Of a DNA stretch of 64,000 nucleotides, positions 56,455 to 56,891 are shown one piece after another (the first letter of the stretch is position 1; each line of letters opens with the position of its first letter). A program made the translations under genes and the position numbers. The notes beneath the pieces were generated by a model, which worked only from the letters and a program-made list of their open reading frames with translations, did no database searches and was not told the DNA's origin. The DNA comes from Fimbriimonas ginsengisoli Gsoil 348 (GTDB taxonomy: Bacteria > Armatimonadota > Fimbriimonadia > Fimbriimonadales > Fimbriimonadaceae). The stretch is from positions 4,836,001-4,900,000 of the forward strand of contig NZ_CP007139.1 in the NCBI RefSeq assembly GCF_000724625.1. Reading direction: 5' to 3'.

Positions 56455-56891
56455 GGTTAGCGGTTGGCAGTTGTTTTGAGTTAGCAGTTCGCAGTTTGTA
56501 GCTAGCAGTTTTCGGAAGTAGAGTCGGGTTTGAGACTGCGGATGAAGCCGTCGAGCATTCGGCTTAGCTCGACTGCCATTCCTTGCAGCGGCTTCAATTC
56601 TTCGGCCGATGCCACTTCAGTTCTGAGCGCTACTTCAAGCTCCGTTCGTAGCTCGAAGAGCGAACCTTGGGCGATGCGGCAGAAGTTGGCGAGGGAGGCT
56701 TTGCTTCCCCTGCCATATCCTTCCGCAATATTCGCCGGAATCGAAACGGCCGACCTTCGCAGCTGACTCGTGAGGCCGAACTGCTCGTCGCGAGGAAAGC
56801 GCCGGGTGACCCGATAGACCGCTTCTACCAAGTCCATCCCTAGCTTCCACACGCCAAGCTTCTCGTATCCGAACTCTGCCAACTGCTAACC
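56455..56891. repeat. 437-bp cassette with 16-bp inverted ends between groEL and groES
   Basis: Left end GGTTAGCGGTTGGCAG (56455-56470) and right end complement GGTTAGCAGTTGGCAG (56876-56891) match in 15 of 16 positions. More GCAGTT units lie just inside the left end and outside the right end (for example AGTTAGCAGTTCGCAG). The cassette contains one gene and the right end overlaps its first codons. Confidence 0.65.
56502..56882 (-). CDS. Four-helix bundle protein (S23/IVP-like)
   Basis: The 126-residue protein (TTG start at 56882) is all helical: YEKLGVWKLGMDLVEAVYRV, RFPRDEQFGLTSQLRRSAVS, IPANIAEGYGRGSKASLANF and an acidic, Leu-rich last helix. RFP-x-x-E-Q-F-G-L-T-S-Q-L-R-R is the hallmark of the TIGR02436 family encoded in 23S rRNA intervening sequences and often found as single genes. 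It interrupts the usual groES-groEL pair. Confidence 0.88.
   Translation of the reverse strand: MAEFGYEKLGVWKLGMDLVEAVYRVTRRFPRDEQFGLTSQLRRSAVSIPANIAEGYGRGSKASLANFCRIAQGSLFELRTELEVALRTEVASAEELKPLQGMAVELSRMLDGFIRSLKPDSTSENC

Follow-up and report, generated by a model that had tools for sequence, protein, structure and literature searches.

S23 genes between convergent heptamer arrays and dispersed ORF-less arrays of the same unit: a candidate two-part mobile system in prokaryotes

In genomes of about 20 phyla, genes of the S23 four-helix-bundle family are enclosed by a convergent pair of tandem arrays built from a short repeated unit. The arrays run G-first and the two arms of a cassette match each other. 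The units of arrays dispersed elsewhere, lacking any open reading frame (ORF), fit those of the resident cassettes in the genomes tested, and relatives carry empty sites. Judging from sequence comparison, we consider it somewhat more probable than not that S23 cassettes and ORF-less arrays form one widespread mobile system with a logic resembling that of REPINs and RAYTs, in which the S23 pentamer would recognise the iterated unit. The function of the widespread S23 or 'four helix bundle' genes is unknown, and bacterial heptamer arrays are without an accepted explanation. Linking the two through a genome-specific unit gives both a testable role and gives the intervening sequences of 23S rRNA a testable origin.

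The cassette between groES and groEL

The analysed stretch of 64,000 nucleotides from Fimbriimonas ginsengisoli Gsoil 348 (the window; its genome is referred to as G000) carries three co-directional genes on the minus strand in the order groES (57206-56916), S23/IVP gene (56882-56502) and groEL (56441-54801). The parts of the locus are as follows.

56916-57206, minus strand: groES, upstream neighbour in the transcript (Cpn10, PF00166, 120.5 bits)
56876-56904, minus strand: 5' (G-rich) arm of four 7-nt units, GTTTGCA GTTGGCG GTTAGCA GTTGGCA on the transcript strand, predicted to pair with the 3' arm in the RNA
56502-56882, minus strand: S23 / 23S_rRNA_IVP / four-helix-bundle gene, 126 residues, TTG start (PF05635, 2.7e-36; TIGR02436, 1.2e-35)
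56455-56510, minus strand: 3' (C-rich) arm of degenerate AACTGCY units terminating in AACTGCCAACCGCTAAC, immediately upstream of the groEL ribosome-binding site
54801-56441, minus strand: groEL, downstream neighbour (Cpn60, PF00118, 253 bits)

The initial annotation had recognised an S23/IVP-type gene between groES and groEL in the same direction, as the ORF coordinates and the PF05635 score of 124.5 bits (curated cut-off 33.8) confirm; the TIGR02436 score is 122 bits against a cut-off of 24. The right repeat supplies the first codons of the gene, as had also been proposed, with the TTG start located inside the right array. The 16-bp inverted repeat described at the ends does exist, with 56455-56470 and 56876-56891 complementary at 15 of 16 positions, but it is the outer part of longer 7-mer arrays at 56455-56510 and 56876-56904. 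The cassette is thus bounded by 7-nt units repeated in tandem, in two convergent arrays reading GTTRGCR inward and AACYGCY outward. With one mismatch allowed, AACTGCYAACYGCNAAC has 84 matches in the genome compared with 11 for the reversed control, so that the arm sequence occurs far above chance.

The predicted fold of the cassette RNA reaches -201.1 kcal/mol, compared with -167.8 ± 5.9 for shuffled sequences (z -5.67); in it the arms pair and the inverted ends form a stem around the ORF. Comparison of the cassette with Rfam gave no match to a known RNA family, including rRNA. Elsewhere in the window, a hairpin at 58756-58814 between converging genes has a weak match to Rfam mir-9261, far below the cut-off, and is probably a bidirectional terminator.

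The AlphaFold (AF2) model of the S23 protein is a four-helix bundle with a pLDDT of 92.2. Its best match in the PDB is 2gsc (Xanthomonas XCC0516, TM 0.89/0.95), followed by Bacteroides 2rld and then by Avd, the accessory protein of diversity-generating retroelements (DGRs; TM 0.72-0.83). Both 2gsc and 2rld contain five chains. The profile similarity between S23 and Avd is weak, and PF05635 and Avd have been described as homologous (PMC10053308). Profile searches with the S23 protein gave matches confined to the S23 and Avd families, with neither a Y1 (TnpA_REP) transposase nor a known catalytic domain among them.

Occupied sites, empty sites and dispersed arrays

The distribution of PF05635 is patchy in the family, with the domain present in 47 of 85 genomes. 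An S23 gene occupies the groES-groEL site in at least 17 genomes of the family; G019 and G014 have an empty site, of 12 nt and 14 nt, as do genera of a neighbouring family of the same order (G096 and G094, 15 nt). G000 and G021 carry sister S23 genes at this position. The site is old and often occupied; therefore, the insertion in G000 is probably shared by descent with G021 rather than recent. The tree of S23 proteins residing between groES and groEL requires seven changes of label and does not resolve a single origin, and inheritance with losses, more than repeated insertion, may explain most of the occupancy at this site. The groES-groEL genes of G023, G010, G018, G011 and G016 (L073, L074, L075, L076 and L078) enclose a diverged S23 with a long Gly/Arg-rich C-terminal tail; these tailed genes are mostly without clear arrays and possibly represent a domesticated form.

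A 10-nt unit, TTCGGATTGG, accompanies sister S23 genes that lie between groES and groEL in G015 and G057 (L045/L047) and at another locus in G028 (L048). The presence of a sister gene with the same unit at a different locus suggests that the whole cassette has moved. None of the 19 congeners has the convergent array pair found in the rpoA-rplQ gap of G000; their intergenes measure 7-59 nt. No target-site duplication is visible at groES-groEL or rpoA-rplQ, where the empty sites are too diverged to align. The earlier suggestion of a mobile cassette withstands comparison both with the relatives, in which the 12-nt and 14-nt empty sites were found, and with the rest of the genome, in which such ends occur at many other places; what did not hold is the 16-bp repeat as its ends, and the insertion seen here is probably an inherited one with no visible target duplication.

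In the G000 genome (one contig, 5.23 Mb), PF05635 matches three genes clearly and a fourth weakly. The second S23 gene, flanked by inverted units of the CACAGTC type, is located between an FmdB-like zinc-ribbon gene and tdk; the third has AACGCCC units, with frr and uppS as its neighbours (these four neighbours were named from their translations). Each of the three is co-directional with both neighbours and resides within arrays of its own unit. The right AACGCCC array enters the 5' end of the uppS ORF (G000:C1:4101268 region, L033:1444-2004), which, if translated from its first start, gains an N-terminal extension encoded by the repeat.

ORF-less arrays are scattered over the intergenic DNA of G000, either single or as convergent pairs of 50-150 bp, at sites including the rpoA-rplQ gap and the regions upstream of rplI and rpsF. 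The window contains the following examples, to which no strand is assigned.

4047-4175: ORF-less convergent pair of GGGCGTT / AACGCCC arrays, the unit of the frr-S23-uppS cassette
13880-13980: ORF-less paired element, GGCGTTGGGCGTTAGGCGTTAGGCGTT facing CGCCAACGCCGAACGCCC
36525-36554: single array of AACGCCC units
47545-47632: degenerate paired element, GGCGTTGGGCGTTGGGC facing CACCGCAACACCGCAACACC

GATGATT-type arrays with a lag of 7 also occur in G000 (window 28846-28880, L203:8736), with a unit unlike those of all three clear S23 cassettes. We considered CCGGAAG as a conserved inner motif beside the arrays and rejected it, as it was found at only 4-7 of 36 sites.

The dispersed units follow the resident cassettes (counts are overlapping pattern matches and not separate sites). 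AACYGCY was found 63 times in G000 and 30 times in G021, both of which have the AACYGCY cassette between groES and groEL, at most three times elsewhere in the genus, and not at all in the close relatives G017, G019 and G022. Three consecutive AACGCCC units occur 106 times in G000 and in none of 19 congeners, and likewise CGAYTCC (171 in G055) and CGAGARG (43 in G063), each counted as three units, are absent from 84 other genomes. Outside the phylum, CGGGATT was counted 34 times in the Rhodanobacter genome of L146 and at one 8-hit site in Pseudoxanthomonas, with none in ten other S23-bearing genomes. The exact units were picked after inspecting the cassettes, and the prediction that a unit is present only together with its cassette was then tested on genomes outside that choice. 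Spaced 200-kb samples contained six lag-7 arrays in G000, 15 in G055 and one in G052, compared with none, none and one (in G014) in 200 kb from each of three S23-less control genomes; periods other than 7 were scarce. G052 has one S23 gene, and its sole sampled array has the unit AACCGCC of its own cassette. Most dispersed families of G055 match its three cassettes, with the exception of AAACGAC, for which no matching cassette was found in that genome.

Recurrence across phyla and its possible explanations

We surveyed one genome per species and listed the best 80 S23 loci, from about 20 phyla and including one archaeal record. A single conserved peptide pattern served to choose these loci, which were ordered by similarity and represent a sample of closer relatives that leaves out more distant S23 proteins. 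When the 250 nt upstream of each gene were locally aligned to the reverse-complemented 250 nt downstream of it, the median score was 19.5, compared with 9.0 for re-paired flanks. The threshold score of 14, taken as inverted-repeat flanks, was reached by 81% of the 80 loci, by 2.5% of the re-paired flanks and by 5.6% of control ORFs from the same loci (n=124). The best tandem lag in the upstream/downstream flanks was 7 in 49/48, 8 in 14/14 and 14 in 8/7 cases. The unit is 7 nt long, sometimes 8-10 nt. K-mers of 23S rRNA were found at none of the 80 loci.

Among 111 cassettes, 83 have inverted arrays, 12 direct arrays and 16 neither. G outnumbers C in the 5' arm of 82 of the 83 inverted cassettes. 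The two arms share 6.04 of 7 unit letters within a cassette compared with 3.67 between cassettes. Compared with the S23 protein, the unit changes rapidly in sequence. Its length tracks the S23 protein tree (13 changes versus 21.7 when shuffled, a value reached in 0 of 200 shuffles), a clustering that may reflect inheritance alone.

Array ends of this kind were also found at three plasmid loci and on one viral contig, with no match to an S23 cassette in 50,697 phage records. On plasmid pANA02 of Anabaena sp. 90 (L302:2986-3354), the cas6 and cas4 genes of a type I-D CRISPR operon flank a co-directional S23 cassette whose heptamer arrays run G-first, and on plasmid pNe_5 of Nostoc edaphicum (L301:3001-3369) a cassette with GTAGGGA units is located antisense between the beta and alpha genes of ribonucleotide reductase. 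A Calothrix duplicate on two plasmids is uninformative on the cassette boundaries because the copies share their neighbouring genes as well.

We propose that the system has two parts. The first would be a single S23 gene flanked on both sides by convergent arrays in which a G-rich unit of 7 nt, sometimes 8-10 nt, is repeated in tandem, and the second the ORF-less arrays, single or paired, of the cassette's unit scattered in intergenic DNA. By analogy with its fold relative Avd, a pentamer that handles nucleic acids, the S23 pentamer would bind the unit bounding its own gene and might promote, in trans, the copying of its own cassette and of the ORF-less arrays alike, much as RAYTs spread REPINs. 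Landing co-directionally between genes, just downstream of a stop codon and upstream of a ribosome-binding site, would make the insertion tolerable, and transcription of the host operon would drive the co-directional S23 gene. The orientation of the neighbours, co-directional in 76% compared with a baseline of 54% (p=0.004; calls from simple ORFs and not from a gene finder), fits both tolerance and transcription from the host operon. A single kind of element is seen inserted in groESL, ribosomal-protein and CRISPR operons. Counted against a mobile system are the 12 of 111 cassettes with direct arrays and the 16 with neither, the one array each in G052 and G014, and AAACGAC in G055, together with the lack of a catalytic domain in S23, of a visible target-site duplication and of any observed movement.

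The same preference for co-directional neighbours would be expected if the cassette were an RNA-level intervening sequence, with the arms selected for pairing in the transcript, the S23 segment enclosed by the resulting stem and released by RNase III, and movement only incidental. The strong fold of the cassette RNA, with its long closing stem, speaks for this reading. A precedent is the 23S rRNA intervening sequence of Coxiella, where a 28-bp stem encloses an S23 ORF preceded by heptamers and RNase III excises the segment (PMC4990558). However, stem mismatches of the G-U type number 107 and those of the A-C type 146, opposite to what selection for sense-strand pairing predicts. The 12 cassettes with direct arrays also speak against it, as do the dispersed AACYGCY arrays examined in G000, which are mostly single and in 7 of 21 intergenic cases lie between convergent or divergent genes. 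The unit-specific dispersal is left unexplained, and we regard this alternative as unlikely.

Variable array lengths, and the over-representation of heptamer repeats in many bacteria that the accessible parts of two reports describe with no link to S23 (PMC4692102, PMC4679880), could point to ordinary simple-sequence repeats arising by polymerase slippage, with S23 genes as mere passengers in or near the arrays. Slippage predicts neither the G-first convergent polarity nor matched arms, and equally little the fit of dispersed units to resident cassettes, the near absence of arrays from the S23-less genomes sampled or the rarity of periods other than 7. We therefore find it improbable.

An unrelated host transposase, such as a resident RAYT/Y1 protein, might instead mobilise the arrays, with S23 as cargo or regulator. 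G000 does contain 13 Y1_Tnp matches, and the spreading of paired inverted repeats in trans is likewise the logic of REPINs and RAYTs. None of the four RAYT loci examined has a heptamer array, though, and both of those checked for ends possess long inverted repeats of their own, which makes this explanation very unlikely. The thirteen places with Y1 (RAYT-like) transposases in G000, e.g., L295-L298, appear as a second, independent repeat system. A DGR-like retroelement, with S23 acting as Avd beside a reverse transcriptase for which a repeat serves as template, is scarcely credible despite the common fold and weak profile similarity, given no RVT_1 (PF00078) in the complete G000 genome and no adenine bias in unit variability (0.080 for A versus 0.068 for G, 0.061 for T and 0.123 for C).

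Returning to the two-part system of S23 cassettes and dispersed arrays, we tentatively put forward the wider possibility, about which we are close to evenly divided, that it represents a new class of prokaryotic mobile element in about 20 phyla. Its sole gene would encode a non-catalytic Avd-like pentamer, its ends would be tandem heptamers that evolve freely and are recognised by the pentamer, and it would disperse its own word in each host. The heptamer families of Xanthomonas, cyanobacteria and perhaps Beggiatoaceae, together with the 23S rRNA intervening sequences, would then be parts of one system. The novelty lies in the linked system, as S23 genes and heptamer arrays were each known before. 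We found no account joining S23 genes to dispersed heptamer arrays in the open-access literature, and a prior description elsewhere is possible.

Comparison with known systems

In REPIN-RAYT systems, the repeats that flank a single gene recur across the genome as inverted pairs, and their sequence is genome-specific. The repeats bracketing S23 genes are likewise found dispersed in paired inverted form. Unlike RAYTs, S23 lacks a Y1 domain, and the ends are tandem 7-mers instead of a single palindromic REP of about 20-30 nt. MITEs and classical insertion sequences with terminal inverted repeats resemble the S23 elements in having gene-bearing and ORF-less copies with common ends. However, the S23 element has no transposase gene, and its terminal sequence differs from copy to copy, the conserved features being unit iteration, polarity and the match between arms. 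Avd of DGRs has the same fold as S23, and its solved relatives are pentameric, whereas the S23 system has neither a reverse transcriptase nor adenine-directed variation.

The 23S rRNA intervening sequences with an S23p ORF in Coxiella and Leptospira share the protein family, a size of about 430 bp and inverted ends able to form a stem, and tandem GACAGAT heptamers precede the ORF in Coxiella (PMC4990558). In contrast, the present cassette resides in the groES-groEL intergene of an operon and not in rRNA, and its iterated-unit ends are also dispersed genome-wide. Published heptamer arrays, mostly intergenic, include GGGAATC in Xanthomonas (PMC4692102), GGGGAYT in Nostoc and TAACTGA in Beggiatoaceae (PMC4679880). 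Unlike the arrays described here, the TAACTGA repeats are mostly direct, and G-quadruplex or regulatory roles were proposed for such arrays, with no S23 gene mentioned in the available parts of the two papers (PMC4692102, PMC4679880). In X. campestris pv. campestris, 70 convergent GGGAATC pairs were reported, located near the 3' side of the upstream gene (PMC4692102), and the related Rhodanobacter unit CGGGATT flanks an S23 gene.
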